From the IMG/VR virus record IMGVR_UViG_3300025141_009413, positions 1-64,000 of that record: 64,000 nt of DNA; one strand, written 5' to 3'. Positions 6,703 through 50,165 of the stretch are shown one piece after another (the first letter of the stretch is position 1; every line of letters starts with the position of its first letter). The position numbers were made by a program, and so were the translations under genes. Below the pieces are notes generated by a model. It ran no database searches, had not been told where the DNA came from, and saw only the letters and a list, made by a program, of their open reading frames with translations. Origin of the DNA: a virus.

Positions 6703-6982
6703 ATATCAATTTACACCAAAAAAATCTGGGAAATGGGAGACTAGTCGTCTCTGTAAACCACCAGTACATGTAGACGATCAGTATATTTTTTCACGTGAAG
6801 GCGACCGTTTAGATTTATTAGCAAAACAATTTTATGATGATGTAACTAAATGGTGGATTATAGCAATTGCGAATGATTTACGTATTGGTTCATTTGTTAT
6901 ACCAGAAGGCTTACAAATACGAATACCTACATATACTGGAGATGTAAATGATGGATTAAGACTTTTAAACCAGGATAAGTAA
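6695..6982 (+). CDS. LysM-type baseplate wedge protein (gp53-like)
   Basis: Ninety-five residues that form essentially one LysM-like unit. The pattern is SREGDRLDLLAKQFYDD, then WWIIAIAND, then FVIPEGLQIRIP. This matches the small LysM-containing wedge proteins of T4-like phages (gp53) and P2 gpX-type tail proteins. It is expected to be structural in the baseplate. It overlaps the upstream gene by eight bases and its TAATGAG stop overlaps the next start, so the three baseplate genes are coupled. Confidence 0.75.
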   Translation: MDRYQFTPKKSGKWETSRLCKPPVHVDDQYIFSREGDRLDLLAKQFYDDVTKWWIIAIANDLRIGSFVIPEGLQIRIPTYTGDVNDGLRLLNQDK

Positions 6983-8766: not shown

Positions 8767-8775
8767 GGATAAGAT

Positions 8776-9507: not shown

Positions 9508-9508
9508 A

Positions 9509-9540
9509 TTTTGATTTACGAGATATTTTTCTTATATTTA
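9509..9540 (+). promoter_or_regulatory. Candidate promoter, TTxGGA / TTATAT class
   Basis: TTTTGATTTACGAGA is followed by CTTATATTTA. The two boxes start 23 bases apart. It lies immediately before the family A polymerase gene. Confidence 0.6.
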
Positions 9541-9541
9541 T

Positions 9542-10894
9542 ATGATGGTTATAGTAGAAGATGAATTAGAATTTAAAAATGTAAAGGAATTATTACAAAA
9601 AGGAGATAGTTTCTGGATACCAATGTATTCGGATGTTTATCACCATTATACTCATAACGAATTGAGTTTTTTGTATATATACTATATTCCTGACGACTTA
9701 GAATACATTGTATCATTCCGTCATACTGATTGTATAAGCCTGGAAAGAGAACGTTTACAAGAACTTATAAGTCCATGCGATATATATGTATTAGCCAAGA
9801 AACGCTTTGGTAAATTCTATTCTGGAAAATGTTATGATGCAGACCTCATGTCTTGGTGGCAAACACATAAAATGTTGCCGTTAAATGAAACAAATACCAC
9901 TGCACATGATATATGGAACCGGTGGTGGCATAATGAAACAAATACAAATGATTGGCTGCCTATAACTAAACATGTCGAACGTTGTACAGGTATGCGAAAA
10001 GAATTTATGAAATCATATGATACATTTAAAATGACGCCTGAATTTAAAAAGTACGATTCGTATGTAATTGATAATTTTTATTCTATAGAACAAAATGGTT
10101 TATATGTTAACAAAAAACTTTATACAGAAAAATTTCAAACTAACGGAATACATAACAGTAAAGTATTTACCGAATATAATTTATATACTTCAACGGGAAG
10201 ACCTTCTAATAAGTTTGGTGGTATTAATTATGCTGCTCTAAATAAAGAAAATGGATGTAGAGAATCATTTATATCTAGATTTGAACATGGCGTGTTATTA
10301 GAATTAGATTATGATGCGTTCCACGTCCGGCTGATCGCAGATATGATAGAGTTTGATTTACCAGAAGGCTCAATACATGAATACTTTGGTAAGCAATATT
10401 TTGGTGTAGATAAATTATCTGCAGAACAATATGAACAAAGTAAAAAAATAACATTTAGATTATTATATGGTGGCATAGATAAAGACTTTGCAAAGATACC
10501 ATTCTTTGGCGAAGTAAAAAATTATGTAAGTAGTTTATGGAAAGGATATAAACGATATGGATTTGTGAAGACAGAATACTTTAAACGGCCAATGTATGCA
10601 GAACATTTACATGAAATGAACCCAAATAAATTATTCAATTATCAGTTACAAGCAGCAGAGACAGAACATAATTTGAATATAATAAATGATGTTAATACAT
10701 TGCTACAACGATATAATAGTAAGATGGTATTATATACCTATGACTCACTACTGTTTGATTATGATTTAAGAGATGGCAAAGAATTTATTTATGAATTAAA
10801 AGATACAATTTCAGAATCCGGTAAGTACCCGGTCAAAATAAAAGCTGGCGTAAATTATCATGCAATGAGAGACATGACTTCCAAAACTATTTAA
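9542..10894 (+). CDS. Divergent family A DNA polymerase-like protein
   Basis: 450 residues. TGRPS lies at 218-222. A motif A equivalent (LDYDAFHVRL) has Asp256. A motif B equivalent, KKITFRLLYGG, lies near 301-312 and keeps the Lys, Phe and Tyr. Motif C (YTYDSLLFD) has Asp401. Both metal-binding Asp residues are retained, but the motif A Glu is His, the motif C His-Asp-Glu is Tyr-Asp-Ser, and the first Arg of motif B is missing. The roughly 200-residue N-terminus shows no intact exonuclease motifs. The phage also encodes a family B polymerase at 24832, so this is a second, probably specialised or repair polymerase. Activity is uncertain. Confidence 0.75.
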   Translation: MMVIVEDELEFKNVKELLQKGDSFWIPMYSDVYHHYTHNELSFLYIYYIPDDLEYIVSFRHTDCISLERERLQELISPCDIYVLAKKRFGKFYSGKCYDADLMSWWQTHKMLPLNETNTTAHDIWNRWWHNETNTNDWLPITKHVERCTGMRKEFMKSYDTFKMTPEFKKYDSYVIDNFYSIEQNGLYVNKKLYTEKFQTNGIHNSKVFTEYNLYTSTGRPSNKFGGINYAALNKENGCRESFISRFEHGVLLELDYDAFHVRLIADMIEFDLPEGSIHEYFGKQYFGVDKLSAEQYEQSKKITFRLLYGGIDKDFAKIPFFGEVKNYVSSLWKGYKRYGFVKTEYFKRPMYAEHLHEMNPNKLFNYQLQAAETEHNLNIINDVNTLLQRYNSKMVLYTYDSLLFDYDLRDGKEFIYELKDTISESGKYPVKIKAGVNYHAMRDMTSKTI

Positions 10895-21696: not shown

Positions 21697-22176
21697 ATGG
21701 GTAAATTTCAATCAACTAAAATATTTGACAACTATTCAGTCGCAATACGTCAATGGAAGGCATCACACTCACACTGTGAATTGTTACATGGTTATGCTTT
21801 AAAATTTAAAGTATGGTTTGAATCTAATACACCAGATGATGAAAATGATGGTTTAGATGATATGAATTGGATTGTAGATTATGGTGGGTTTAAAGATAAG
21901 CCAATCGGCAACGGACTAAAAGATTGGATGAATCATATGTGGGACCATACCACATTAATTCAATCAAATGACCCATATCGGGATATATTTGAACAAATGG
22001 GACAAATGGGTCTATGCAAAGTACATTTTTTAGAAAAAATGGGTGCTGAATCTTGTGCTAAAATAGTTTATGACAAATTTAATGAAGTTCTATCCAAAAC
22101 AGATGCTGGAAGATGTAAGGTTGTTAAAGTAGAATGTTTTGAAAACGATAAAAACTCAAGTATATATTATGGATAA
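21697..22176 (+). CDS. queD: 6-carboxytetrahydropterin synthase (QueD)
   Basis: 159 residues. The N-terminal segment ASHSHCELLHGYALKFKVWF supplies the catalytic Cys and the His zinc ligands of the pterin synthase fold. NWIVDYGGFKD, MWDHTTLI and the AESCAKIVYDKF segment match the DxxDxG / LDH / E-x-n regions in diverged form. It converts dihydroneopterin triphosphate, made by FolE, to carboxytetrahydropterin, the second step to 7-deazaguanine. An AAAAGGAAAAAA site precedes it. queE overlaps its stop. Confidence 0.82.
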   Translation: MGKFQSTKIFDNYSVAIRQWKASHSHCELLHGYALKFKVWFESNTPDDENDGLDDMNWIVDYGGFKDKPIGNGLKDWMNHMWDHTTLIQSNDPYRDIFEQMGQMGLCKVHFLEKMGAESCAKIVYDKFNEVLSKTDAGRCKVVKVECFENDKNSSIYYG

Positions 22177-22978
22177 AAATATGGTAGTAAGTAGGAAATT
22201 TGGAGTATTAAAACGAATAAAAGATTACAATAAAACACTCCCAGTACTAGAACTTTATCGGTGTGTTCAAAGTGAAGGTTCTAGATTTGGAAGACCTACA
22301 ATAGCAGTAAGAACCACAGGATGTACTCATCGATGCTACTTTGGAGAAGGTGGATGGTGTGATAGTTGGTATACTTCTATTCATCCTGAAAAAGGCACAT
22401 TTACCTTTAATGATATTATTAAAATATATGATGAAAATCCTCATATAAAAGAAATGATGCTAACTGGAGGATCACCAACAATGCACTCAGCATTAGTAAA
22501 TGAAATAACATATTTTGCTAAAAAAAGAGGAATAATAGTTACAATTGAAACTGAAGGATCTCATTTTTTAGAAACTGATTATCCAATTGATTTAATATCT
22601 CTTTCACCGAAGTTTTCGAACTCAATTCCAAAACTAGGAGCAGTTACTCCGGGTGGGAAGGTGGTAGACGAAAGAATGATTAAACAACATAATAAGTATA
22701 GATTGAATTCAGATGCAATTTTTAAAACATTGTCATACCATAAAGATTATCATTATAAACCGGTGTGGGATGGTACTGTATCAAATTTAAAAGAAATAGA
22801 AGATTTTAGAGTCAAGATGAGTATTCCAAAACATAAAACATTTGTAATGCCAGCAGGAGATACAAGGAAACAATTAATACGAATGTATCCTATTGTGTTT
22901 GAAATGTGTGCCGAAGAAGGATACAATATGACTGGTAGAGATCATATAATAGCATTTAACACAGAAAGAGGAGTATAA
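22169..22978 (+). CDS. queE: 7-carboxy-7-deazaguanine synthase (QueE, radical SAM)
   Basis: I choose the ATG at 22169, which overlaps the queD stop as ATGGATAA; an upstream in-frame ATG at 22139 lies well inside queD. That gives 269 residues. TTGCTHRCYFGEGGWCD carries three Cys for the 4Fe-4S cluster with an enlarged spacing between the second and third (C-x3-C-x7-C). ELYRCVQSEG upstream and LTGGSPTMH downstream are typical of QueE. It makes 7-carboxy-7-deazaguanine. Spacing variants of the cluster loop are known in QueE. Confidence 0.85.
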   Translation: MDKNMVVSRKFGVLKRIKDYNKTLPVLELYRCVQSEGSRFGRPTIAVRTTGCTHRCYFGEGGWCDSWYTSIHPEKGTFTFNDIIKIYDENPHIKEMMLTGGSPTMHSALVNEITYFAKKRGIIVTIETEGSHFLETDYPIDLISLSPKFSNSIPKLGAVTPGGKVVDERMIKQHNKYRLNSDAIFKTLSYHKDYHYKPVWDGTVSNLKEIEDFRVKMSIPKHKTFVMPAGDTRKQLIRMYPIVFEMCAEEGYNMTGRDHIIAFNTERGV

Positions 22979-22980
22979 TT

Positions 22981-23280
22981 ATGAAAATGAAACCAATCGG
23001 AGATTTAATTTTATTAAAAGAACACGAAAAGAAAAATAAGACCAAATCTGGACTTATATTAACAAATGGCACAGATGGAGATTATGTACGTGCTGATGTA
23101 ATTGAAACTGGGGATGGTTTGTTTACTCAAACTGGGGATAGAATTCCAATGACAGTAAAACCAGGCGATACAGTTATGTTACATAAAAATCAAGCCGGTA
23201 GTAATAAACAAGTTAAAGTAGAAGAAGAAAATTATTTGTTAGTTCATGAATCTGAACTTGCAATGATTATAACCAAATAG
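22981..23280 (+). CDS. groES: GroES-like co-chaperonin
   Basis: 99 residues matching the Cpn10 fold: KPIGDLILLKEHEKK at the start, the mobile loop region KTKSGLIL near 21-28, KPGDTVMLHKNQAG near 61-74 and YLLVHESELAMI at the end. It is bacterial-like, more so than T4 gp31. It caps a chaperonin ring to fold phage proteins, probably the capsid protein. It is separated from the phage GroEL gene by about 9 kb and sits inside the deazaguanine cluster. Start is three bases after the queE stop. Confidence 0.85.
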   Translation: MKMKPIGDLILLKEHEKKNKTKSGLILTNGTDGDYVRADVIETGDGLFTQTGDRIPMTVKPGDTVMLHKNQAGSNKQVKVEEENYLLVHESELAMIITK

Positions 23281-23670: not shown

Positions 23671-24345
23671 ATGACAACAAAGAAAAGTATTGAATTAGTT
23701 AAAGAAGGATTTGCAAATGGAGTAGCTCCAGGAGGTCCTTTATCAGAAAATGAAAAGCAAGATATGATAACTCTTGCTGCTAGACATTTTGGCCATTTTT
23801 TAGATGCACTTAAATGTGATTGGAGAAATGATCCAAATTCGAATGATACTCCTAGGCGAGTAGCTAAAGCATATATAAATGATTTATGGGCTGGTAGATA
23901 TAATGGAGCTCCAAATATTACTGCATTTCCTAGTGATGGTTATGATGGTATGGTTTTTGAGGGGGGTATTCCATTAACTTCAATGTGTTCACATCACCAC
24001 CAAACTATTATGGGTAAAGTCCATGTAGCATATATTCCGGGTGAAGATAGTAAAGTTATTGGATTAAGTAAATTAAATCGACTAGTAGAACATTTTGCTA
24101 GGCGAGGTGCAATACAAGAACAATTAACAGTAGCAGTACATAATGCCATTGGCACTATTATTAATGATAATAAAGGTGTGGCAGTTATGATTGATGCAAC
24201 TCATAATTGTGTACAGTGTAGGGGCGTTAAACATGGCGGTGCATCAATGAAAACAAGTAAGTTAACCGGTGCATTTAAACATGACAATGCAACTAGGTCT
24301 GAATTTTATGAATTTGTAAGAGGTTATGGAAATACTAATACCTGA
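23671..24345 (+). CDS. folE: GTP cyclohydrolase I
   Basis: 224 residues. CSHHHQ at about 106-111 and HNCVQCRGVKHGG near 170 provide the zinc ligands and catalytic His. NDTPRRVAKAYINDLW is the conserved N-terminal segment, and VIGLSKLNRLVEHFARR completes the family signature. It opens GTP to dihydroneopterin triphosphate, the entry to both folate and 7-deazaguanine. With queD and queE nearby, the latter is the likely use. The next gene starts inside its last seven codons. Confidence 0.92.
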   Translation: MTTKKSIELVKEGFANGVAPGGPLSENEKQDMITLAARHFGHFLDALKCDWRNDPNSNDTPRRVAKAYINDLWAGRYNGAPNITAFPSDGYDGMVFEGGIPLTSMCSHHHQTIMGKVHVAYIPGEDSKVIGLSKLNRLVEHFARRGAIQEQLTVAVHNAIGTIINDNKGVAVMIDATHNCVQCRGVKHGGASMKTSKLTGAFKHDNATRSEFYEFVRGYGNTNT

Positions 24346-24832
24346 GTATAAAATAGAACGACGTGTCAGAGCAATGGCACATAGATTATCTGAAGAACAT
24401 AAAGCTAGTGATAATTCCTTACCACCAGTAATGATTTGTGTATTAAATGGAGCATTTATGTTCTTTACAGATTTGGTTAAGGATATGGGAATTGATGTTC
24501 AAATTGATTTTATTAGAGCAAAATCATATGAAGGTAAAGACAATTCTGGTGGAGTTAAGATTACAAAACATTTAGATCTGGAATTGAAAGGTAAACGTGT
24601 TTATATCGTAGAGGACATAATTGACACCGGACAGACGATGATTGAAATATTACAACATGTAAATGATAAAATGCCAGCCGAAGTAAATATCGTTACACTG
24701 GTACAGCGTAAAGAAGCCAAAATGCCAATTGACCATTATTGTTTTGAAATTGATGAAGAATGGATAGTTGGATATGGATTAGATGATAATTCATTAAAAA
24801 GAAATTATAGAAACGTATATAAAATTAATTAA
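24326..24832 (+). CDS. hpt: Hypoxanthine/guanine phosphoribosyltransferase
   Basis: 168 residues. VYIVEDIIDTGQT at 92-104 is the PRPP-binding loop. LNGAFMFFTDLV near 40-51 and IDFIRAKSYEG near 60-70 match purine PRTases, and WIVGYGLDDN near the end holds the base-recognition Asp region. It joins free hypoxanthine or guanine to PRPP. It overlaps folE by 20 bases, so it is tightly coupled to the deazaguanine route. It may recycle guanine released by base exchange in DNA, or feed GTP to FolE. Both ideas are inference. Confidence 0.85.
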   Translation: MEILIPEYKIERRVRAMAHRLSEEHKASDNSLPPVMICVLNGAFMFFTDLVKDMGIDVQIDFIRAKSYEGKDNSGGVKITKHLDLELKGKRVYIVEDIIDTGQTMIEILQHVNDKMPAEVNIVTLVQRKEAKMPIDHYCFEIDEEWIVGYGLDDNSLKRNYRNVYKIN

Positions 24833-27362: not shown

Positions 27363-27803
27363 ATGATAGGATTTAAAGATTATTGGTTCGGAAAAGAATG
27401 TGAAGGCAGATTAACAGATGTCGAAACATTGTTTGTTGCAAATGTAAATTTAGAAGAACCTAATGAATTGCAACAAATTCTTTATAAAGCACCTCATATA
27501 TACATTTGTTCTCCGGCAACAAATCAAATGATTACAATTAATGATTGGCAATGGCTAAATGATTTAGTTGATAGAGGTAGGCATGTAGTAAGTATAGAAG
27601 TAACCCCCGGCCAATTAGAATTAATACCGCCAATGATTAGAATTAAATGTCATATAATGTATATGATAAATCAAAAAGAAGTTAGTTTATTAAAAAAGAA
27701 TGATAGTATCAAAGTTGTATATGATGATTATTCTTTATATTGTGCAAGTATACAAAATATGCAACATGTGAAACCAGATGATTACAAATATGACAGAACT
27801 TAA
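27363..27803 (+). CDS. Hypothetical protein upstream of the DNA-modification glycosyltransferase
   Basis: 146 residues, alternating strands and helices (APHIYICSPAT, then GRHVVSIEVTPG), with no cysteine cluster. It looks like a small alpha/beta protein. The family is not recognised. It is the first gene of an operon with the glycosyltransferase and the DpdA-like enzyme and overlaps the former, so a part in the same base-modification process is possible. Confidence 0.5.
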   Translation: MIGFKDYWFGKECEGRLTDVETLFVANVNLEEPNELQQILYKAPHIYICSPATNQMITINDWQWLNDLVDRGRHVVSIEVTPGQLELIPPMIRIKCHIMYMINQKEVSLLKKNDSIKVVYDDYSLYCASIQNMQHVKPDDYKYDRT

Positions 27804-28860
27804 TACGATATGGGTAATAGACCTTGAAGCAGTTGAAAGTAGGTATACTGGACAATGGAAACATCATATTCCGGAATTGTTACGTATACAAAGCTTTGGC
27901 CAATTTAATGTCCGTGTGATAGAAGGACCGACCGACATTCCAGATGCAACCACTCCGGGGGCATTTTTAAATTTTGGTGGCACTAATATATACAAAAGTG
28001 CACAAATGGAAAAAATTAGTAGACTATTTTGTAATGGCGAAGTGAAATCCGGAGACCATTTTATTTATACTGATGCCTGGAATCCTACTATTATTCAACT
28101 TAAGTATATGAGCCAGTTATTACAAATACCGATTAAAATACATGGTTTTTGGCATGCTGGTAATTATGACCCAAATGACTTTTTAGGAAGATTGATAAAA
28201 GATGAATGGGTTAAGACGTTTGAAAAATCATTAGCACAAACAATAGATTATAATTGGTTTGCATCATTTGACCATCTAAAAATGTTTAGAGAAAATTTTG
28301 GTTATGATGGCATTCAATGTTTCAGAACCGGATGGCCAATGGAATACCTATATCATATGATTCCAAATACAGGACCTAAAGAAGATATCATATTATTTCC
28401 TCATAGGATAGCACCAGAAAAGCAAGTTGAAATATTCAAAGATTTAGAAAAGGAACTACCTGAATATAAGTTTATAGTATGTCAAGAACATAATTTGTCT
28501 AAAAAAGAATATCATAGTTTGCTACAAAGGTCAAAGATAGTATTTTCTGCAAACCTTCAAGAGACGTTGGGTATATCATGTTACGAAGGAGCTTTGGCAG
28601 GTGCAATTCCATTAGTTCCAGATAGATTAAGTTATAGAGAAATGTATTTGGATGAATTTAAATATCCAAGTGCGTTTACAGAAAATGAAGATAGTTATAT
28701 TAGATCAAAAGATTTATTAATTGCATTGATACGAAATACAATGAACAATTATGACCATATAAGGACAAAATTACCAGAACTAGTAGATAAATTACATAAT
28801 GAATATTTTTCATGTAATGGATTACTAGATGTTTTACTTGAAAAGGCGTTCCATGAGTAA
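27790..28860 (+). CDS. GT4-type glycosyltransferase linked to dpdA
   Basis: I prefer the ATG at 27790 (MTELNTIWVID) to the one at 27778; both overlap the upstream stop. About 356 residues with a GT-B layout: an N-terminal domain with WVIDLEAVESRYTGQW and a C-terminal domain with ILFPHRIAPEKQ near 200. An E-x7-E motif in QETLGISCYEGALAG near 258-272 is typical of family GT4. It overlaps the DpdA-like gene by eight bases (ATGAGTAA). Its neighbours are DNA enzymes rather than the sugar island, so a DNA-base sugar transfer role is worth testing. The acceptor is unknown. Confidence 0.6.
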   Translation: MTELNTIWVIDLEAVESRYTGQWKHHIPELLRIQSFGQFNVRVIEGPTDIPDATTPGAFLNFGGTNIYKSAQMEKISRLFCNGEVKSGDHFIYTDAWNPTIIQLKYMSQLLQIPIKIHGFWHAGNYDPNDFLGRLIKDEWVKTFEKSLAQTIDYNWFASFDHLKMFRENFGYDGIQCFRTGWPMEYLYHMIPNTGPKEDIILFPHRIAPEKQVEIFKDLEKELPEYKFIVCQEHNLSKKEYHSLLQRSKIVFSANLQETLGISCYEGALAGAIPLVPDRLSYREMYLDEFKYPSAFTENEDSYIRSKDLLIALIRNTMNNYDHIRTKLPELVDKLHNEYFSCNGLLDVLLEKAFHE

Positions 28861-30097
28861 CGAAAAACAAAAAGAATTTATATATTTTCCATCTTTATCT
28901 GCTGGTGGATTTGCTTCTTCTTTAATTAAAGATGATAAGTTATCATCTGGCCACCCATGCAGATTTTATACAGATGAATATCCGGAAGAATATAGACATA
29001 AATATTTCTTAGTCACAGCCGGACATTATTATAAGAAAATGGACATTAGACAGCAAATGGGCTTAGGTGATGATGTATTAGTATTTGGAGATTCCGGAGG
29101 ATATCAAATTGCAACAGGTGCATTAACGTATAGTGATGATTTAAGAGAAAAAATATTTCATTGGTTAGAAGCAAATTCAGATGTAGCAGCAAATCTAGAT
29201 ATTCCACCCAAAACAGTTTATGAAAATCAATTTTATCATTGTGCAGATATTAGTTATGATAATTTTGCTTGGTTTGAAAAACATCAATCCGGAAAGACAA
29301 AATTCTTAAACATGTTACAGGGGTCTAATCCATCAGAGTATGATTATTGGTATCATAGATTTAAACATTTTGAATTCCAAGGTTGGGCAATTGGAGGACC
29401 ACAAAAGTTAGTTGATTTTATGTGGGCATTAGCATTAATGTTAAATAATAGAGAATTTGAAAATAAGAGATTAGAATATTTACATTTATTAGGAATTTCA
29501 AAAATATCTGATTTCTTTATTTTATCGACAATACAGAAGAACTTAAATAAACATTTTGGAAACAGAATAGTTGTAACAACAGATTCGAGTTCGCCTGGAC
29601 AATATCCTGTATATGGAACTTATTTACATTCTCATAACTTTAAGAAATTATCTTTTAGTGATGTATATATGCCAAAAGGAAATAAAGATGAAGACGGAAA
29701 TATTATCAAATTATCAACTGATAAAGTACCAGATCTGCAGCATGATCAATTGGTGCCATGTAGTTTAGATTGCCCGGCATGTAAAGATTTTACATGGGGT
29801 ATGTTAGATGAATATAATAAAGATGCTGTACCGAGAATGGTGTTACATAATGTACACGTATTCCAAAATACTATTAGAGAAGTGAACAAAATTGTCGCTG
29901 CTCATAGAGATGTTGCTCAATATATGGTTCCGGCCAATTTGGCAGCAGTATTAAAAAGTATATACGAAATGTTTGAAGACCCTGATAAAGCAATTGTAGT
30001 TTATGAAAAATATAAACAATATTATCAGAAATTTGGCGGGCAGAGTATATCAACAATAAACAAGGATATTTTTAATCAATTTTTTGAAAAGGCATAA
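28853..30097 (+). CDS. dpdA: DpdA-like DNA 7-deazaguanine transglycosylase (TGT family)
   Basis: The start at 28853 overlaps the previous stop as ATGAGTAA; 414 residues. GDSGGYQ at about 79-85 is the TGT active-site loop (DSGGFQ in tRNA enzymes). TTDSSSPG near 243 is a plausible nucleophile Asp segment. Zinc ligands are C-x3-C-x2-C (PCSLDCPACKDF, near 302) and the His of LHNVHVF about 25 residues on, as in TGT. The family exchanges guanine for a 7-deazaguanine base. In phages with FolE/QueD/QueE it acts on DNA. A tRNA target cannot be ruled out from sequence alone. Confidence 0.8.
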   Translation: MSNEKQKEFIYFPSLSAGGFASSLIKDDKLSSGHPCRFYTDEYPEEYRHKYFLVTAGHYYKKMDIRQQMGLGDDVLVFGDSGGYQIATGALTYSDDLREKIFHWLEANSDVAANLDIPPKTVYENQFYHCADISYDNFAWFEKHQSGKTKFLNMLQGSNPSEYDYWYHRFKHFEFQGWAIGGPQKLVDFMWALALMLNNREFENKRLEYLHLLGISKISDFFILSTIQKNLNKHFGNRIVVTTDSSSPGQYPVYGTYLHSHNFKKLSFSDVYMPKGNKDEDGNIIKLSTDKVPDLQHDQLVPCSLDCPACKDFTWGMLDEYNKDAVPRMVLHNVHVFQNTIREVNKIVAAHRDVAQYMVPANLAAVLKSIYEMFEDPDKAIVVYEKYKQYYQKFGGQSISTINKDIFNQFFEKA

Positions 30098-32444: not shown

Positions 32445-34052
<1,608 letters not shown>

Positions 34053-36414: not shown

Positions 36415-37866
36415 ATGCAAGAAATACAGTTACCAAAACTCAAAAAAATCAATCCTAATAGACCAAAAAAGAAAAAAATATTATTATTATGTGATGATAT
36501 GCGAATGCATTCTGGCATTGCAACAATGGCAAAAGAATTTGTTATAGGCACAGCTCATAAATATGATTGGGTGCAAATCGGAGCAGCAATCAAACATCCA
36601 GATGAAGGAAAGGTATTTGATTTATGTAATGATGTGAATAAAGAAGCCGGCATTGATGATGCGTATGTAAAGGTATATGCATGTAATGGCTATGGCAATC
36701 CTCAACTCTTACAACAAGTGATGAATATGGAAGCCCCGGATGCAATACTGCATTTTACAGATCCTAGATTTTGGGGTTGGTTATATAATATTGAGCATAG
36801 TCTTAGACAATACGTGCCAATCATGTATTATAATATTTGGGATGATTTACCATATCCATTCTGGAATGAGCCGTTTTATGAATCCTGCGATTTAATAATG
36901 AATATATCCAGACAAACACAAAACATTGTAAAAAATGTCATTCGTAAATATCCTAAACCTGATTGGGCAGTACAATATGTTCCGCATGGAGTTAATGAAA
37001 AAAAGTTTTATCCTATAAATTCATTGCATAAAGAATATGAAGAATTTACAGCATTTAGATCTAGATTTTTACGAGATAAATTTGAATTTGTGATATTTTG
37101 GAATAATAGAAATATCAGAAGGAAACAGCCAGGTGATGTAATATTGGCATTTAATGAATTCTGTAAAACATTATCAAAAGAAGAAGCAGATAAATGTGTT
37201 TTAGTAATGCACACTCAAGGTGTTGACCCGAATGGAACTGATTTATATGCTGTTAAAAATGCTGTTTGTCCAGATTATAATATAGTTTTTAGTACAAATG
37301 CTGTCGACCAAAAAACATTAAATTTTTATTATAATATGTCTGATGTAACTATTAATATTGCATCTAATGAAGGATTTGGCATTTCTTGGTGTGAATCATT
37401 ACATGCCGGCACCCCCATTATTAATAATGTTACAGGCGGATTGCAAGACGGATGTCGATTTGATCATGGAGATGGATCATGGATTGACTTTGATACTCAT
37501 TTCCCGACTAATCATGACGGCACGTATCAAATAGCCGGCAAGTGGTCAAAGCCAGTATTTCCGAGTAATAGGTCATTACAAGGTTCACCACAGACGCCTT
37601 ATATATTTGATGATAGAGCAAATTTTAAAGATGTTGCAGCTGCAATTGAATATTGGTATAAAATGTCAAAAGAAGAAAGGGACATTTGTGGAGCTGCCGG
37701 ACATGAATGGGTTTGTGGAACAGAGTCGAATATGTCAGCTAGAAGAATGAGTGAAAGAATGAGTGAATGTATCGAAGAGTGTTTTGAAAAATGGACACCA
37801 CGCGAAAAATTTACAATGTATAAAATAGAACCAAAGTTAAAAATTGAAAACCCAGGAGTATTATGA
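36415..37866 (+). CDS. GT4-type glycosyltransferase with N-terminal LPKLKK tag
   Basis: 483 residues. It starts MQEIQLPKLKKINPN with a Lys-rich leader, then a GT-B body: ILLLCDDMRMHSGIAT near 22-37 and, near 320-345, NIASNEGFGISWCESLHAG, the E-x7-E motif of GT4 enzymes. It would move a nucleotide sugar onto an unknown acceptor. The LPKLKK tag recurs twice at the C-terminus of the next protein. The gene overlaps the next by four bases (ATGA). Confidence 0.7.
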   Translation: MQEIQLPKLKKINPNRPKKKKILLLCDDMRMHSGIATMAKEFVIGTAHKYDWVQIGAAIKHPDEGKVFDLCNDVNKEAGIDDAYVKVYACNGYGNPQLLQQVMNMEAPDAILHFTDPRFWGWLYNIEHSLRQYVPIMYYNIWDDLPYPFWNEPFYESCDLIMNISRQTQNIVKNVIRKYPKPDWAVQYVPHGVNEKKFYPINSLHKEYEEFTAFRSRFLRDKFEFVIFWNNRNIRRKQPGDVILAFNEFCKTLSKEEADKCVLVMHTQGVDPNGTDLYAVKNAVCPDYNIVFSTNAVDQKTLNFYYNMSDVTINIASNEGFGISWCESLHAGTPIINNVTGGLQDGCRFDHGDGSWIDFDTHFPTNHDGTYQIAGKWSKPVFPSNRSLQGSPQTPYIFDDRANFKDVAAAIEYWYKMSKEERDICGAAGHEWVCGTESNMSARRMSERMSECIEECFEKWTPREKFTMYKIEPKLKIENPGVL

Positions 37867-39194
37867 AGCCATTTATAGTAGTACAAGGACCAGTCGCAAC
37901 TAGATCTGGATATGGAAATCATACTAGAGATTTAATTACCAGTCTGATTAAAGCAGACAAATATGATATTTTAATAGTCTCATTACCATGGGGATCATGT
38001 CCTTCTGACGCATTAAAGCCAGAAAATCCGGAACATTTAGAAATAATAAAACGTATTGCAAGAGAAAATATAAGAAAAAAGCCAGACGTATTCATTCAAA
38101 TTAGTGTGCCTAATGAATTCCAACCAATGGGACAATATAATATAGGCATTACAGCCGGCATAGAGACAGATACTGTATCGCCAGAGTTTTTAGAAGGATG
38201 TAATAGAATGAATTTAATATTAACTACGTCTGAACATTCTAAAGAAGGATTTATGAATTGTCAGTATGATACTATGGATAAAGAAACTAAGCAAAAAACT
38301 GGCGAATTAAAATTAACAACAGCTATAGATGTTTTGTTTGAAGGTGCAGATTTAAATGTATACAAAAAAATATCACCAACAGATATCCATGAATCTATTA
38401 CAGAGACTATGTCAACAATTAAAGACCAATTTTGTTATTTATTTGTAGGACATTGGCTAAAAGGAGATATTGGTCAAGATAGAAAAGATATAGGAATGTT
38501 AATAAAGACATTTGCTGAAACATTTAAAAATAAAGCTAAACACAACCGACCGGCGTTAATATTAAAAACTAGTAGTGCGACTTTTTCAATAATGGACCGT
38601 GAACAAATTACATCTAGAATTCAACAAATATTAGAGCCATATGGTATCAAAGCGCCGAATGTTTATTTATTACATGGAGATTTAACAGATCAAGAGATGA
38701 ATTCTTTATACAACCACCCTAAAATAAAATCAATGATTTCTTTTACAAAAGGCGAAGGCTTTGGTAGACCATTATTAGAATTTTCTTTAACAGGGAAGCC
38801 AGTTATAGCTAGTGATTGGTCCGGACATAAAGATTTCTTACAACATTCTATAATGTTACCAGGACAATTAACAAATGTACATCCTTCAGCAGCAGATAAA
38901 TTTTTATTAAAAGAAGCTAAATGGTTTACCGTCAATTATCAATATGCATCTGCAGTCCTTAAAGAAGTTACAGAAAATTACAAAAATAAGATTCCTAGTG
39001 CTAGAAAACAAGCAACATTTAGTAAAAAGGAATTTAATTTAGATAAGATGGCAGAACTGTTTTGTACGCATGTTGATAAAGGCCTAGAAAATGTACCACA
39101 ACAAGTTTCATTAAAATTGCCAAAACTTAAAAAACTAGGAAATAAAGAACCAAATAAGGTAAAATTGCCAAAACTTAAAAAGGTTGAAGTATGA
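37863..39194 (+). CDS. GT4-type glycosyltransferase with C-terminal LPKLKK repeats
   Basis: 443 residues. GPVATRSGYGNHTRDLI near 9-25, LFVGHWLKGDIGQDRKD near 193-209 and FTKGEGFGRPLLEFSLTG near 293-310 (E-x7-E) define a GT-B/GT4 enzyme. The last 27 residues hold two copies of KLPKLKK separated by a short spacer. A shared tag with the upstream enzyme suggests that the two dock on a common partner or membrane. Overlaps on both sides show a tight operon. Confidence 0.7.
   Translation: MKPFIVVQGPVATRSGYGNHTRDLITSLIKADKYDILIVSLPWGSCPSDALKPENPEHLEIIKRIARENIRKKPDVFIQISVPNEFQPMGQYNIGITAGIETDTVSPEFLEGCNRMNLILTTSEHSKEGFMNCQYDTMDKETKQKTGELKLTTAIDVLFEGADLNVYKKISPTDIHESITETMSTIKDQFCYLFVGHWLKGDIGQDRKDIGMLIKTFAETFKNKAKHNRPALILKTSSATFSIMDREQITSRIQQILEPYGIKAPNVYLLHGDLTDQEMNSLYNHPKIKSMISFTKGEGFGRPLLEFSLTGKPVIASDWSGHKDFLQHSIMLPGQLTNVHPSAADKFLLKEAKWFTVNYQYASAVLKEVTENYKNKIPSARKQATFSKKEFNLDKMAELFCTHVDKGLENVPQQVSLKLPKLKKLGNKEPNKVKLPKLKKVEV
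39112..39181 (+). repeat. Perfect 22-base direct repeat at the 3' end of a glycosyltransferase gene
   Basis: The same 22 bases occur at 39112-39133 and 39160-39181, 48 bases apart, coding for KLPKLKK twice. A related sequence lies at the 5' end of the neighbouring gene near 36424. Confidence 0.8.
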
Positions 39195-39673
39195 AATTAG
39201 ATTATGATGAAATATCTCCTATAACTAAAAATGAATGTGTTATAGTTGAAGCAGACGAATCCACAAATACTACATCATATATGTGTATGGAATCTGGATT
39301 TACAACATCAGACAAATTAGTTATTGATTCAAAACATGTATCAGATTATGAAGCTACTTTGCCACAACTTATGAAAGACGTAAAATATACTGATGAAGAA
39401 CGTGGACTAATATGGTATCCAGCCTTTCTTAATGTCCCGGGAGTTGGAATGTTATATTGTTCCGGAAATAAAGAATCTGATTTTAGATGGGAAGTTGCTA
39501 AGACAGTAGAATTGATAGGCGATGAAAGAAAGAAATTTCCAGTACCAGGAAAACTTGGAGAATATTACACATCACGACTAGATACAGAAAATGCAACACA
39601 ATTCGACAGATCTCGATTTGGAGAGGCACTTGACTGTTACTATGAAATGATGGCTAAAATTTATGCACAATGA
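39191..39673 (+). CDS. Conserved hypothetical protein in the sugar island
   Basis: 160 residues, with a WYPAFLNVPGVGMLYCSG segment near 78-95 and no nucleotide-sugar motif. Overlaps both neighbours by four bases. I do not recognise a function. Similar proteins seem to occur in marine phages, from memory only. Confidence 0.5.
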   Translation: MKLDYDEISPITKNECVIVEADESTNTTSYMCMESGFTTSDKLVIDSKHVSDYEATLPQLMKDVKYTDEERGLIWYPAFLNVPGVGMLYCSGNKESDFRWEVAKTVELIGDERKKFPVPGKLGEYYTSRLDTENATQFDRSRFGEALDCYYEMMAKIYAQ

Positions 39674-40302
39674 AAATAAGTTATGCCATTCCGGTTTGTA
39701 CGGAAATAAAAGAAATACAAAATTTGATTAAATATTTATTAAAATGGCGACGTGATGAAGATGAGATTGTTATATTAGTAGATGAAGATAATAGTACTCA
39801 AGAAGTACGAGATTATATAGAACTAGTTGCAGAAGAATGTATCGATCAAAATTTACATAGATATTATCATTCACTTAATAAAGATTTTGCAACACATAAG
39901 AATTTCCTAAATAGCAAATGTACAGGAGATTGGATATTTCAGTTAGATGCAGATGAATACCCAGACGAATATTTAATAGGTGCTATACCATGGGTAATAA
40001 ACCAAAATCCAGATGTAGAAGCATATTGGGTATCTCGTATTAATACAGTGAAGGGCATTACTGAAGAACATATTCAAAAATGGAATTGGAATGTCGATGA
40101 ACGGGGCTGGATTAATTTTCCTGATCCTCAATTGAGGTTATATAAAAATAGTTCAAAAATAAAATGGAAGGGCGAAGTTCATGAACGACTTACTGGATAT
40201 AAAAAATTCGGAAGTATGCCTAGTAATCCAGAATATTGTTTACATCATCCAAAAAGTATAGAACGTCAAGAATCTCAGAACAAATTTTATGATACTATAT
40301 AA
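39670..40302 (+). CDS. Family 2-type glycosyltransferase
   Basis: 210 residues, a single GT-A domain. KISYAIPVCTEIKEI starts the fold, EIVILVDEDNST near 32-43 is the nucleotide-binding strand and FQLDADEYPDEY near 92-103 is the D-x-D metal site. WKGEVHERLTGY near 159-170 resembles the WaaE/KdtX subgroup that adds glucose to LPS core. The acceptor here is unknown. Confidence 0.7.
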   Translation: MKISYAIPVCTEIKEIQNLIKYLLKWRRDEDEIVILVDEDNSTQEVRDYIELVAEECIDQNLHRYYHSLNKDFATHKNFLNSKCTGDWIFQLDADEYPDEYLIGAIPWVINQNPDVEAYWVSRINTVKGITEEHIQKWNWNVDERGWINFPDPQLRLYKNSSKIKWKGEVHERLTGYKKFGSMPSNPEYCLHHPKSIERQESQNKFYDTI

Positions 40303-41345
40303 TGATCAAAATAAAAATACAAAACCCGACTATTGGAAGAAATGAAATTACATTCCGTCCATTTTTACAATTAGCACATTTATTGCGAGATTATAGCATA
40401 GATATAACAGATTCTGATGACTATGATTTTTTATTTGTTGGAATGCATGATTTTATCGATAAAAAACAATCATTAAATGACAGTATAGAATATGGGTTAG
40501 AAAATCTTTCGAAAATAACCGGTGATTATTTTTTATTCGATGGTTCTGATTCTACTTCATTAATGGGAGCATATGAAGTATTTGATCAAAGTAATGCTAT
40601 ATACTTATTTAAAAATCAAAAATTTAAAGAAAGACATAATTACCTACATTCTACTGCATTTAACAAGTGGTGGTTTGGAATTGATAGCGAACTCAATTTA
40701 CATTATGATATCTCAGAAGAGAATTGGAACAAAATAAAACTATCAAATATCAATTGTGGCCGTACTATTTTTGGGACTGGCATAGAACCGGAGATTAATA
40801 AAATGCCACCTATAGAACAAAATAAGAATATTGATATTTGTGCTATATTTCAAGGAGGCCATCCTGAATGTTATGATCATAAAGTAAGGAATGATATTCC
40901 ATATACAAAACACCGTACTGAGTTATGGGATAAATTAAAACCTATGAAAGGTGAATACAATATCATTTCAAAGAAATTAGATTTCACGACTTATATAGAA
41001 AAATTACGTCAATCAAAAATTTGTATATCTCCATTTGGAATGGGAGAATTATGTTTTAGAGATTTTGAATCTATGTTGTGTGGCACTATTTTATTAAAAC
41101 CAGATCAGTCAATAATCGAAACATCGCCTGATATGTATGTAGAGGGAGAAACGTATATTGGTTGTAGTGTAATATGGGACGACTTAGAAGAAAAAATAAA
41201 TTATATATTTGATAATTTCCATGAACTAAATCAAAAACTTACATATAACATACGACAACGGTACGTACAACAATACACATACGAAAATTTTTGTAAACAC
41301 TATTATGATATATTTAGTAACTTAAACAATGTAGTCCATCAATGA
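40302..41345 (+). CDS. Glycosyltransferase-like protein (GT-B C-terminal domain)
   Basis: 347 residues. The C-terminal half has KICISPFGMGELCFRDFESM and MLCGTILLKPD near 240-270, the pattern of GT-B enzymes such as exostosin-like or CgeB-like transferases. The N-terminal half has no clear signature. Its start follows the previous stop with a one-base overlap. Confidence 0.55.
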   Translation: MIKIKIQNPTIGRNEITFRPFLQLAHLLRDYSIDITDSDDYDFLFVGMHDFIDKKQSLNDSIEYGLENLSKITGDYFLFDGSDSTSLMGAYEVFDQSNAIYLFKNQKFKERHNYLHSTAFNKWWFGIDSELNLHYDISEENWNKIKLSNINCGRTIFGTGIEPEINKMPPIEQNKNIDICAIFQGGHPECYDHKVRNDIPYTKHRTELWDKLKPMKGEYNIISKKLDFTTYIEKLRQSKICISPFGMGELCFRDFESMLCGTILLKPDQSIIETSPDMYVEGETYIGCSVIWDDLEEKINYIFDNFHELNQKLTYNIRQRYVQQYTYENFCKHYYDIFSNLNNVVHQ

Positions 41346-42094
41346 AAAAATATTCAATACTTTCAGTAGCAAATAAACAATATACTAAATTTGCATATGT
41401 CTTCATTCAAAGTGCAATAAAGCATTTAAACTTAGACAATGTACATGAGATATGTATTTTAGAAACAGGAATGGATTCTGCCGATATTAGTTATTTAACT
41501 AATCTTCATCCAAAAATTAAATTTATTAATGGAGCAGAAGTCTCGTCTAGCAAAGCATGGGATGATGGCTGGCAAGAAAATGTATTACTTAAAACTAACT
41601 TTGCAAAAGAATATATATCTAATAAAAGTATACCAGCTTGTATGATAGATATTGACTGTATGTTTGTACAAGATATTTCTAGTATAATTACTGCAGATAA
41701 ACATGATGGTATTGTCTTATGTGATAGGTCTGAAATTTGGGGCGGCATGCCATACATAGCTTCTTTTGTAGGTTTTGTGAATATAGAACAATCTTTGAAT
41801 TTTATTAATGATTGGATATTATGTATAGACAATATCAAAGGATTCCGGACTAAAGAAACACCAGCATTAAATGAAATTATACGATCAGCATCAGAAAAAT
41901 ATGATTTTTATGCGGCTAGCCATGATATAGTAGGGCTGTATGTAAAAGATAAATTCAATTCTAATTCTTGTATATTACATTTTAAGGGTGGAGGAGATTC
42001 TGAAAATATACCAATGGATGAAGCGGTGCAAGTAAGATTTAAGAGGTTTCCACAATTTGAAAATGAAATTAATGAATATTTAGAAAATGTGTAG
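41342..42094 (+). CDS. GT-A glycosyltransferase (GT8-like)
   Basis: 250 residues. Opening KKYSILSVANKQYTKFAYVF, then PACMIDIDCMFVQDI near 97-111 with a D-x-D site (DID), and CILHFKGGGDSEN near the end. This suits the GT-A enzymes that use nucleotide sugars, GT8-like in layout. Overlaps at both ends. Confidence 0.6.
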   Translation: MKKYSILSVANKQYTKFAYVFIQSAIKHLNLDNVHEICILETGMDSADISYLTNLHPKIKFINGAEVSSSKAWDDGWQENVLLKTNFAKEYISNKSIPACMIDIDCMFVQDISSIITADKHDGIVLCDRSEIWGGMPYIASFVGFVNIEQSLNFINDWILCIDNIKGFRTKETPALNEIIRSASEKYDFYAASHDIVGLYVKDKFNSNSCILHFKGGGDSENIPMDEAVQVRFKRFPQFENEINEYLENV

Positions 42095-43403
42095 TATTTT
42101 ATTTACAAATAAAGAAGTTAATAAAGCAAATAAGCTGCTAGAAAGGCGCGGACCGGATGCCACATCGCTAGTAACTAAATATGGCTATACATTTTTACAT
42201 ACCTTATTAAGTCTAACCGGAGAATACACTACACAGCCTATAGAAGAAGATGGCATAATATTATTATTCAATGGAGAAATTTATAATTTTAAAGATATAG
42301 ATAATAATGCTAAGTCAGATTCTTATAGTATAATATCATCATATAAAAAACATGGCACTGAATTCGTAAAATATTTAAATGGAGAATTTGCTATTGTTTT
42401 AGTAGATATTAAAAACCAGTTAATTGTATTTTCGTCTGATGTATTTAAAACTAAGCCATTGTTTTATTCTATAGAAGAATCATTTATAGGAATATCAACT
42501 TTTGAATCTCCTTTGCGGAATTTGAAGTTTTCTGACATACATAGAGTGCGTCCTAATACATGTTATACTATACACTTGGAACTAGGTTATATCGAACAGT
42601 ATGCTATCAAAGACTTTAATTTAGACCAACATAAAACAACTTATGATGATTGGATTAATGCCTTTGACCGGTCCATTAAGAAACGAGCAACACAATCTGA
42701 TCTTAACAAAATGTTTATTGGATTATCATCCGGATATGATAGTGGAGCAATAGCATGTGCTCTTAACAAGTTAGATGTCGATAATAAATGTTATAGTATA
42801 TATGCTTCAGAGAATGAAGATGTTATTAATGAACGAGTTAAGTTATTAAAGAATATAGAAACAATACGATTATCACATGGAGATTTTTCAACATGGAGAG
42901 ATTATGTAAATAAAAATTGTGAATCATTTATCAGTGAACAATATAATGGTTATGATATAAAAAATGATAAAGCATCAGTTGGGTTATCGTATATTTGTGA
43001 TAAGGCAATTAAAGAAGGACGTAAAATATATTTATCTGGTCAAGGTGCTGATGAAATATTTTCTGATTATGGAATGTTCGGAACAAAAATAATGGGAGAT
43101 CAACAAAGTACCTTCGGGGGAATATATCCAAAAGATTTAGCTCCGTACTTTCCATGGAAAAATTTTTATGATGGTACGATGGAAATGTATATTGCAAAAG
43201 AAGAATATATTGCTGGGAGTTTCGGAATAGAGACTAGATATCCATTCCTAGATGTTGATGTAGTTCAAGAGTTCTTATGGTTGACTCCAGAACTAAAAAA
43301 TAAATCATATAAATCAGTTGTATATGAATATCTAGTTCATAATAATTTTCCAATTGATATTAATAAAAAAATAGGATTTCAGGCAAATAGAAATCTAATT
43401 TGA
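42087..43403 (+). CDS. Glutamine-dependent asparagine synthetase-like amidotransferase
   Basis: 438 residues, shorter than AsnB. Cys2 after Met is the class II glutaminase nucleophile. RRGPDATS near 24 and LFNGEIYNF near 63 are glutaminase motifs. The synthetase domain has IGLSSGYDSGAIA near 211-223 (PP-loop) and LSGQGADEIFSDYG near 315. In a sugar island it probably amidates a sugar acid or another intermediate rather than free Asp. It is the last gene before a new promoter. Confidence 0.8.
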   Translation: MCSILFTNKEVNKANKLLERRGPDATSLVTKYGYTFLHTLLSLTGEYTTQPIEEDGIILLFNGEIYNFKDIDNNAKSDSYSIISSYKKHGTEFVKYLNGEFAIVLVDIKNQLIVFSSDVFKTKPLFYSIEESFIGISTFESPLRNLKFSDIHRVRPNTCYTIHLELGYIEQYAIKDFNLDQHKTTYDDWINAFDRSIKKRATQSDLNKMFIGLSSGYDSGAIACALNKLDVDNKCYSIYASENEDVINERVKLLKNIETIRLSHGDFSTWRDYVNKNCESFISEQYNGYDIKNDKASVGLSYICDKAIKEGRKIYLSGQGADEIFSDYGMFGTKIMGDQQSTFGGIYPKDLAPYFPWKNFYDGTMEMYIAKEEYIAGSFGIETRYPFLDVDVVQEFLWLTPELKNKSYKSVVYEYLVHNNFPIDINKKIGFQANRNLI

Positions 43404-43437
43404 TTAGGATATTTGAAAAAAATTTTATATATTAATA
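43404..43437 (+). promoter_or_regulatory. Candidate promoter, TTxGGA / TTATAT class
   Basis: TTAGGATATTTGAAA followed by TTATATATTAATA. The spacing is about 21 bases, shorter than the usual 23. It precedes the methyltransferase gene. Confidence 0.45.
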
Positions 43438-43452
43438 ATAAGTAAAGAAATT

Positions 43453-44097
43453 ATGAAAAAAAACAATTTAAAAGGAAAATCATCACATGAGATAGAAAAA
43501 ATAAAGTATCTAGATGCTTTCAAACACGGCACTAGTGCCAATAGTCAATATGGCGAAGGAAATCAAGGACAAACTGCGCAAGATTTTTTTGAAGGTCGAA
43601 ATGTAAAATCACTTCTTGATGTAGGTGCAGGACAAGGAAATTTTGTAAATAATTTAGCCACTCTATATGAAAGTTTAGAAAAAATATATGCATTAGATAT
43701 AGCATCAGTATCAGCAGGAGTAAATATTAAGAATGAAAAAATTACGTGGATAGAAGCATATTCACATGATATACCACTTGAAGATAATAAAGTTGAATGG
43801 GTCACTTCAATGGATTGTTTAGAACATATCCTACCAGAAGATATGCAAACTACATGTAATGAATTTTATAGAGTATGTAGTGTAGGTGCTTTAGTTAAAA
43901 TTGCATTTCGAGATTGTCAAGAACGATCACAGCTATATTCAGTACTGCCATCAGGCCATAAATCATTACATTTATCAATATTTACTAAAGAGACTTGGAT
44001 AGAACATTTTATGGCCGCTGGATTTAAAAAGCATGAAATGTATAAAGAAAATCCAGGACATCCGCGAGAAGATAATTATTTAATTTTTTATAAGTAA
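43453..44097 (+). CDS. SAM-dependent methyltransferase
   Basis: 214 residues. LLDVGAGQGNFVNNLA near 55-70 is the SAM-binding motif I, IYALDIAS follows as motif II and VEWVTSMDCLEHI near 114-126 as the motif IV region. A class I fold, methyltransferase type 11-like. It probably methylates a glycan or nucleotide sugar, given its neighbours. Its substrate cannot be read from the sequence. Confidence 0.75.
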   Translation: MKKNNLKGKSSHEIEKIKYLDAFKHGTSANSQYGEGNQGQTAQDFFEGRNVKSLLDVGAGQGNFVNNLATLYESLEKIYALDIASVSAGVNIKNEKITWIEAYSHDIPLEDNKVEWVTSMDCLEHILPEDMQTTCNEFYRVCSVGALVKIAFRDCQERSQLYSVLPSGHKSLHLSIFTKETWIEHFMAAGFKKHEMYKENPGHPREDNYLIFYK

Positions 44098-44123
44098 TAT
44101 AGAATTTAATGCAAACTGGTAGT

Positions 44124-44924
44124 ATGAAAAAACATGTATTATTTTGGGTTGGTATAAAAAGTGAGAATACACATTTACGTGAAAAACACGGAAATTTTAA
44201 ATACCTAGACATTTCTAAACAATGTTGGGAATGGTGGTGTAAACAGAATGACGTTATATTCTTTCCATATGAAAAAGCAAATGAGCCTGATACAAATGCA
44301 CATAAAGCAACTTGGCAGAGATGGTTTGATGTATTTGATCAAATAGAAAGTGCTAATATTGATTATGATAAAATTGCTGTTATTGATGGCAGTACGTTAG
44401 TACGATGGGACACTCCTAATTTCTTTGAATTAGCAAAAGGACAAGTAACTGCATTTAGATCTTTAGAAAATTTAAGATGGATAACAGAGAGTGTAGATGG
44501 ATATAATGATTTTTTTAATAACTTTGATTTTGATCTAAAAAAATATATTAGTTGCGGCTTCCAGATATTTGATAAAAGTCATAAAGAATTTTTACAAGAG
44601 TTAAGATCATTTTATTATGACAATTATGATTCCATTATGGACTTACAGAATAATAAAGTAGGTAAAGGTACAGACCAGCCAGTATATAATTATCTATTAC
44701 AGATGAAAGGAGTAGATGTTAATACAACATTGCCACCGAATTTTATGTTGACTCATTTGTATAGGTTTGATTGGTTCTCTCATAATTGGCAATTAAATAT
44801 TGATAAAACACCGTTCTTCCTTAAATATGGATTCATATACTTTTTTAGTGGATTTCCTAATAGAGGTGATAGGTATAATCTAATGGATCAGATTTGGAAT
44901 GCAATAAAGGGTCAATACAAATGA
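44124..44924 (+). CDS. GT-A type glycosyltransferase, paralogue of the next gene
   Basis: I choose the ATG at 44124 (MKKHVLFWVG) by comparison with the paralogue; an in-frame ATG at 44109 would add five residues. DYDKIAVIDGSTLVRWD near 80-96 is the nucleotide-sugar strand, with the usual D-x-D replaced by D-G-S. ISCGFQIFDKSHKEFLQ is shared in similar form with the next protein. It overlaps that gene by four bases. Loss of D-x-D may mean altered activity. Confidence 0.6.
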   Translation: MKKHVLFWVGIKSENTHLREKHGNFKYLDISKQCWEWWCKQNDVIFFPYEKANEPDTNAHKATWQRWFDVFDQIESANIDYDKIAVIDGSTLVRWDTPNFFELAKGQVTAFRSLENLRWITESVDGYNDFFNNFDFDLKKYISCGFQIFDKSHKEFLQELRSFYYDNYDSIMDLQNNKVGKGTDQPVYNYLLQMKGVDVNTTLPPNFMLTHLYRFDWFSHNWQLNIDKTPFFLKYGFIYFFSGFPNRGDRYNLMDQIWNAIKGQYK

Positions 44925-45664
44925 AAAATATAGTTTTTATACCAACAGTAAAAGGGACAGACCCTAAACGATTAGCAGAAGTTGCATATGACTTATCAAT
45001 AAAGAGTTGGGCAAAGTGGTGTGAGAAAAATGATTGTGAATTATTCGTAATGAGTGATTTGGTTCATGATTATGAAGAAATGAAAATTACATGGCAACGG
45101 TATTATGTATTAGAATTTTTAGAGAATGAGGATATTGAATACGATCAGGTATTAATGGTTGATGCTGATACAATTGTACATCCGGATTGTCCAAACTTTT
45201 TTGAAATGACAGAACATAAATACTGTGGTGTGCATAATATTGGCAGTTATGATTGGGTAATACGTAGTATAGAAAATTATAGTCATTATATGTTTAATAA
45301 TAAATCATTTCCATATTATGAATATATCAACGGTGGATTTCAAATCATGAATAAAAGTCATAAAGAATTCTTAAGGGCTGTTGTAAAATTTTATTGGGAT
45401 AATAAAGATTCATTATTAACATTACAAAATAAAATATATTGTGGTACAGATCAAACTCCTATCAATTTCTTAATAAGAGAATATAATATTGATTTAAAAA
45501 TATTACCATATGAATTTAATATGCAAGACATGATGAGATTTGAAGTATTAGGAGAAGATTTATTATATACAAGACACGGATGGGTATATCATTTCAATGG
45601 TGGAGTAAAACCACATCCCAGGGCATGGATGGAACATACATATAAGGCACTTTATGAAAATTGA
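44921..45664 (+). CDS. GT-A type glycosyltransferase, paralogue of the previous gene
   Basis: The ATG at 44921 overlaps the upstream stop (ATGA). 247 residues. VLMVDADTIVHPDCPNFFE near 75-93 has an intact D-x-D (DAD). NGGFQIMNKSHKEFL and CGTDQTPINFLI align with the previous protein, so the pair arose by tandem duplication. This copy keeps the metal site that the other has changed. Confidence 0.65.
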   Translation: MKNIVFIPTVKGTDPKRLAEVAYDLSIKSWAKWCEKNDCELFVMSDLVHDYEEMKITWQRYYVLEFLENEDIEYDQVLMVDADTIVHPDCPNFFEMTEHKYCGVHNIGSYDWVIRSIENYSHYMFNNKSFPYYEYINGGFQIMNKSHKEFLRAVVKFYWDNKDSLLTLQNKIYCGTDQTPINFLIREYNIDLKILPYEFNMQDMMRFEVLGEDLLYTRHGWVYHFNGGVKPHPRAWMEHTYKALYEN

Positions 45665-46667: not shown

Positions 46668-46668
46668 C

Positions 46669-47604: not shown

Positions 47605-47626
47605 CAAAAAATTTATTATATTATAA
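47593..47626 (+). promoter_or_regulatory. Candidate promoter, TTxGGA / TTATAT class
   Basis: TTAGGACTTTAGCAAAA followed by TTATATTATAATATG, box starts 23 bases apart. The first box lies in the last codons of the upstream gene, so chance is possible. Confidence 0.4.
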
Positions 47627-47627
47627 T

Positions 47628-50163: not shown

Positions 50164-50165
50164 TT

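Follow-up and report, generated by a model that had tools for sequence, protein, structure and literature searches.

A GT4-like glycosyltransferase gene and its neighbor dpdA are almost certainly coupled in function, and glycosylation of a 7-deazaguanine base, as predicted from the genes, is a rather probable function of the glycosyltransferase. This is the best-supported reading of the evidence, which consists of the co-occurrence of the genes, their pattern of exchange, the conserved catalytic residues, the depletion of QueC, the lack of a thymidylate-synthase-family enzyme in three genomes and the sugar genes in relatives. The sequence-only reading had proposed a sugar on a deazaguanine base. 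The coupling to dpdA in that proposal is borne out by co-occurrence and exchange pattern, whereas the chemistry itself stays predicted.

Glycosylated pyrimidines in DNA and 7-deazaguanines in phage DNA are known separately. Our literature search, with one 2023 paper on further derivatives outside its reach, found neither a glycosylated 7-deazaguanine in DNA nor a link between this glycosyltransferase and dpdA; the earlier statement was that no established example of such a base in phage DNA is known. As a word, "glycos..." is absent from Hutinet 2019 (PMC6884629). A survey of jumbo phages remarked on a deazaguanine system for PA5oct only, and no DNA-modification data were found in the reports on MIJ3, Callisto and Paride.

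Layout of the locus

The window, i.e. the whole stretch of DNA analyzed, is 64,000 bases long and belongs to a virus record of 64,493 bases, which is itself a fragment. The genes of the cluster are as follows.

21697..22176, + strand: queD (6-carboxytetrahydropterin synthase); Pfam PTPS 4.7e-10, PHROG 1.6e-32
22139..22978, + strand: queE (7-carboxy-7-deazaguanine synthase, radical SAM); PHROG 6.6e-48, PDB QueE chains 2.4e-8
23671..24345, + strand: folE (GTP cyclohydrolase I); Pfam 1.3e-46
24326..24832, + strand: hypoxanthine/guanine phosphoribosyltransferase-like gene; Pfam 2.9e-28
27363..27803, + strand: u-family gene, 146 aa (uW lineage); open reading frame and profile comparison
27790..28860, + strand: glycosyltransferase, GT-B fold, GT4-like, 356 aa; fold model, motifs and weak Pfam match
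28853..28860, + strand: ATGAGTAA, eight-base overlap of the glycosyltransferase stop and the dpdA start; sequence
28853..30097, + strand, ATG at 28853: dpdA, putative TGT-superfamily DNA base-exchange enzyme, 414 aa

The glycosyltransferase gene has its start codon, ATG, at 27790 (another ATG in frame, upstream at 27778, is a possible alternative) and its stop codon, TAA, at 28858-28860. As the sequence-only reading had described, it overlaps dpdA by eight bases, and the 146-residue gene precedes and overlaps it, by 14 bases (27790-27803). Among the matches listed, loci in which the glycosyltransferase comes first have a median gap to dpdA of -8 bp, and the gap is 60 bp or less in 65 of 76 non-redundant loci. 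This tight packing, with the eight-base overlap kept in the lineage, rules out a chance arrangement.

Upstream of the trio lie queD, queE, a GroES gene, folE, the phosphoribosyltransferase gene and a family-B DNA polymerase gene, and downstream lies a sliding clamp gene; the replication-gene setting was therefore described correctly. The window DNA polymerase family occurs in 2,575 phage records and the glycosyltransferase in 20, which rules out the glycosyltransferase as part of a replication module. The phosphoribosyltransferase gene recurs in 125 of 294 loci (profile runs, among the matches listed) and possibly serves the salvage of guanine displaced by DpdA. The window encodes both a co-chaperonin GroES (22981-23280) and a GroEL-like 534-aa protein (32448-34052), 9 kb apart.

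A sugar island extends from 36415 to 55792. It contains several GT1/GT2/GT8-type glycosyltransferase genes and DegT aminotransferase, GDP-mannose dehydratase-like and asparagine-synthase-like genes. Its first glycosyltransferase gene starts at 36415, 7.6 kb from the dpdA-linked one (8 kb in the earlier estimate). No link between the island and the dpdA cluster came from any test run.

The glycosyltransferase, DpdA and u proteins

The glycosyltransferase scored 20.7 bits against Pfam Glycos_transf_1, below the curated cut-off of 26.4. Because the subfamily is divergent and its Pfam score is under the cut-off, the label GT4-like is based on fold and motifs only. The AlphaFold model (41 relatives) has a complete two-domain GT-B fold with pLDDT 84. 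By VIA, it matched sucrose-phosphate synthase (6kih) with Z 24.9 and BshA (3mbo) with Z 23.8; Foldseek gave 6.8e-10 for BshA. When residues are counted from the second codon after 27790, E257-x7-E265 and the phosphate-binding pair R205-x4-K210 are invariant across the 41 relatives and five diverse copies from phages, and H121 is likewise invariant. Such invariant residues are expected in an active retaining GT4 enzyme. By its model, the protein is a GT-B glycosyltransferase that is nearest to GT4 enzymes and keeps the catalytic residues, and sugar transfer is predicted. BshA, the GT4 glycosyltransferase of bacillithiol, shares the GT-B fold and is among the top folds over 298 residues; however, its sequence identity to the phage enzyme is just 12%. 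The acceptor of BshA is L-malate. Profiles of the glycosyltransferase and u families against PDB sequences gave nothing useful, and IMG/VR single-protein scans with the X1 and PhiXhv glycosyltransferases gave no matches.

The window DpdA matched Pfam TGT below the threshold (E 0.012, 15.1 bits versus 26.3). The Asp of DSGGxQ (D80) and a second Asp (D244) are invariant in 17 aligned sequences, and relatives of the protein align with DpdA2-type phage proteins. From its sequence, DpdA is expected to be a TGT-superfamily enzyme that would insert 7-deazaguanine into DNA. The target might instead be RNA, with a queuosine-like tRNA base inserted and glycosylated as in animal mannosyl- and galactosyl-queuosine. 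Glycosylated 7-deazaguanines occur in tRNA (PMC12518689) and this is therefore a precedent for the chemistry. However, the insertion enzyme groups with phage DpdA and not with tRNA-type TGT, Pfam TGT being under the cut-off, and DNA carries the base in other 7-deazaguanine phages (PMC6884629). We consider an RNA target extremely improbable and retain DNA as the preferred target.

The u family consists of uW (the window lineage), uA (a larger lineage) and uX (phage X1), which were joined by profile comparison: uW and uA matched with E 5e-7, against E 0.01 at best for other profiles, and uX and uW matched with E 2e-4. Neither Pfam nor PHROG nor the PDB gave a match to the family. Among the matches listed with flanks of at least 3.5 kb, u genes are accompanied by both the glycosyltransferase and dpdA in 31 of 31 uW groups and 83 of 83 uA groups (114 of 114 in total), and the 13 isolate records with a u-family match all fall inside the glycosyltransferase/dpdA set. 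The u gene thus belongs to a true family that, among these matches, is confined to loci with the glycosyltransferase and dpdA.

The AlphaFold model of the u protein has pLDDT 87. By VIA, QueE (6nhl) is among the best rows (Z 5.2, 110 of 146 residues), where unrelated folds tie at 5.2-5.4, and Foldseek gave weak GTPase-like matches only. In hhalign, uW matched QueE weakly (E 0.008), with its N-terminal hairpin on the QGEG hairpin, and none of 150 column shuffles equaled this match; uA gave no comparable signal, two of 150 shuffles being as good, in a different segment. The CxxxCxxC iron-sulfur motif is absent from the window u sequence and from the u alignments, and therefore the u protein is not a QueE enzyme. 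Descent of the u protein from QueE is conceivable, and we propose it tentatively.

Co-occurrence and exchange of the glycosyltransferase and dpdA genes

The glycosyltransferase family was found in 20 isolate records (the PA5oct/Paride group, Phosso, ACP17, X1, PhiXhv/Ep032 and BUCT-ZZ01), and 7-deazaguanine genes are present in six of six isolate neighborhoods examined. From the IMG/VR alignment scans, we used the best 80 of 496 confirmed matches for the glycosyltransferase, the best 80 of 540 for uA, the best 80 of 533 for dpdA and all 35 for uW; selection of best matches favors near relatives. Profiles were run on 294 loci, which form 232 groups at 97% DNA identity, and a locus was counted if its flanks measured at least 3.5 kb each. 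Among the matches listed, dpdA is in the locus for 113 of 116 non-redundant glycosyltransferase loci and, under the same flank rule, the glycosyltransferase is present in 117 of 124 dpdA loci.

Frequent separation of the two genes in relatives, which would have spoken against the earlier proposal, was not seen: only in Phosso, where dpdA is 170 kb away, and in PhiXhv-15, where it is elsewhere in the genome, do they lie apart. On contig L293, a divergent TGT/DpdA family member (PHROG 1.2e-29) lies upstream of the glycosyltransferase with one small gene between them. Consequently, a dpdA/TGT family member accompanies the glycosyltransferase somewhere in 116 of 116 groups among the matches listed. 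The individual dpdA check covered records other than PhiXhv-12, PhiXhv-16 and Ep032. L293 is a Flavobacterium-binned MAG contig, and its positions 4641-9792 hold a compact run of TGT/DpdA, P2, glycosyltransferase, queD, queE, folE and phosphoribosyltransferase genes adjoining a terminase-like gene.

This distribution bears on what the glycosyltransferase modifies. It might be an ordinary surface-polysaccharide enzyme, placed among replication genes by happenstance, as its GT4-like sequence and a real glycosyltransferase-rich island at 36.4-55.8 kb would allow. However, its family profile matches no other window ORF and its distribution tracks dpdA in every group, and we regard this explanation as very improbable. 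Alternatively, the target might be a hydroxymethylated pyrimidine as in T4, with the proximity to dpdA reflecting a shared DNA-modification island. This is the classic phage role of a DNA glycosyltransferase, and a thymidylate-synthase-family protein is encoded by some relatives (Phosso, PAC2 and three IMG/VR contigs). In contrast, the complete genomes of ACP17, X1 and BUCT-ZZ01 bear the glycosyltransferase without any enzyme of that family, which excludes a dCMP/dUMP hydroxymethylase of the same family. The constant partner is dpdA. Because three complete bearers do without such a protein, a hydroxymethylpyrimidine acceptor is improbable, and a 7-deazaguanine is preferred. No thymidylate-synthase-family enzyme was found in the (partial) window record.

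Between the window lineage and the uA lineage, the glycosyltransferases are 57-60% identical and the DpdA proteins 24-28%. Distance correlations (mirror-tree) were 0.35 for glycosyltransferase and dpdA, 0.37 for glycosyltransferase and polymerase, and 0.89 for dpdA and polB. The weak correlation of 0.35 argues against simple co-inheritance, as far as sequence distances can tell, and gives no support to co-divergence. The gene orders are u-GT-dpdA in the window, dpdA-u-P2-GT in most IMG/VR loci, u-dpdA-GT-P2-queE in ACP17, dpdA-GT-P2 in the PA5oct group, u-GT-dpdA-P2-queE in X1 and dpdA-P2-GT in BUCT-ZZ01. Because the glycosyltransferases are far more alike than the DpdA proteins and the orders vary, the pair appears to have re-associated, beyond plain inheritance. 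A shared function is the best explanation, since the glycosyltransferase moved between lineages and yet again adjoins dpdA. P2 (L003 13018-13401 and relatives), of which the window has no copy, is PTPS/QueD-like (hhalign E 2.8e-6 to QueD). We dropped P2 as a partner of the glycosyltransferase and left it outside the claim because it also occurs near folE in phages that gave no match to the glycosyltransferase (Ahp1, Bakedbeans).

The target base, the proposed pathway and known systems

No QueC was found in the window record by a search that detected QueC in 12 of 14 control genomes. QueC is present in every DpdA phage tested that has no such glycosyltransferase, six in all (Moby, pf16, nt-1, Vibrio 2.275, GR7B and Illi-2). 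In contrast, 18 of 20 glycosyltransferase-bearing records, several of which are fragments, have no QueC over the cut-off, the exceptions being PhiXhv-15 and the IMG/VR contig L063. By a hand calculation, the odds of all six non-bearers falling among the eight QueC-positive records of 26 are about 1e-4. The product of QueE is 7-carboxy-7-deazaguanine, which QueC converts to preQ0 (PMC13329287). Because QueC is mostly missing in the bearers and its step gives preQ0, the likeliest base in these phages is 7-carboxy-7-deazaguanine. This base has no exocyclic hydroxyl. Therefore, the acceptor would be the carboxylate or a group added by some further enzyme.

Host QueC could be an alternative source and give preQ0 instead of the carboxy base. 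The glycosyltransferase would then act on preQ0, preQ1 or the amide. QueC is common in hosts, and the two exceptions above, one of them a glutaminase-QueC fusion near the PhiXhv-15 homolog, are in keeping with this; however, the QueC distribution stands against it. We regard it as unlikely, and 7-carboxy-7-deazaguanine remains the preferred base. The fusion (PhiXhv-15 L005 9669-11192, QueC 4.4e-49) is deposited as L-glutamine-D-fructose-6-phosphate aminotransferase. It resembles Gat-QueC of phage 9g.

Sugar-metabolism genes occur in clusters of relatives. Among the matches listed, about 20 loci have Gfo/Idh-like and alcohol-dehydrogenase-like genes between dpdA and u, and in some of these the interval from the glycosyltransferase to folE also includes a gene for a DegT aminotransferase, a UDP-glucose dehydrogenase or an epimerase. 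These genes, which are absent from the window's cluster, are consistent with sugar tailoring. The distant PhiXhv-15 homolog is flanked by the fusion gene, a PIG-L deacetylase and a Gfo/Idh oxidoreductase, which suggests transfer of N-acetylglucosamine followed by deacetylation there. Extra radical-SAM enzymes were also observed: one of B12-binding type lies between folE and queE (L042 6921-8936), and in a few loci (L131, L161, L180 and L183) QueE-profile matches adjoin the u gene. Further tailoring of the base by such enzymes is possible.

In our proposal, the trio carries out the final steps, insertion and tailoring, of a pathway by which the phage modifies its DNA with 7-deazaguanine. FolE, QueD and QueE would convert GTP to 7-carboxy-7-deazaguanine, and DpdA would exchange guanine in phage DNA for this base. 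With a nucleotide-sugar as donor, the GT4-like enzyme would glycosylate the 7-deazaguanine base, whether already inserted or still free. For the u protein we propose an accessory role, and it may be a base-binding subunit that derives from QueE. The identity of the sugar, the order of the steps, the role of u and the acceptor atom, either the 7-carboxylate or a group made from it, are inferred. The whole picture, in which glycosylated 7-carboxy-7-deazaguanine substitutes for guanine in the DNA of a large phage group, with the glycosyltransferase in place of QueC and a QueE-derived accessory protein without a radical-SAM center, is speculative and rather doubtful.

Because the glycosyltransferase occurs with dpdA in every genome checked, hundreds of phages may carry a sugar-bearing deazaguanine in their DNA. 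If so, it would be a bulky guanine modification and a potential block to restriction and CRISPR enzymes, and it would account for an unannotated gene set that recurs across hundreds of viral contigs. Bearers are already in culture (ACP17, X1, BUCT-ZZ01 and the PA5oct group), and the genetic marker is the presence of the glycosyltransferase with QueC gone.

The predicted activity resembles that of the T4 alpha- and beta-glucosyltransferases, phage enzymes that put a sugar on a modified DNA base, hydroxymethylcytosine; however, the target base differs and the window model is nearest to GT4-type enzymes such as BshA. The tRNA queuosine glycosyltransferases QTMAN and QTGAL transfer a sugar to a 7-deazaguanine nucleoside, as is predicted for the phage enzyme. 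Their site is the cyclopentenediol of queuosine in tRNA. The tests run gave no sequence or structure link to QTMAN or QTGAL, and our initial idea of kinship with the animal queuosine mannosyltransferase was supported by no match. In CmoX/CmoY hypermodification of carboxymethylcytosine (PMC12783734), a carboxylate on a DNA base is likewise a handle for decoration, but the base is cytosine and the reaction is amide ligation, not glycosylation. The nearest setting is that of the DpdA/DpdA2 phages such as 9g and nt-1 (PMC6884629), where folE, queD, queE and a TGT-superfamily dpdA share a neighborhood as in the window. The window group differs from these systems in that it is mostly without QueC and in that the glycosyltransferase and a new small protein family adjoin dpdA.
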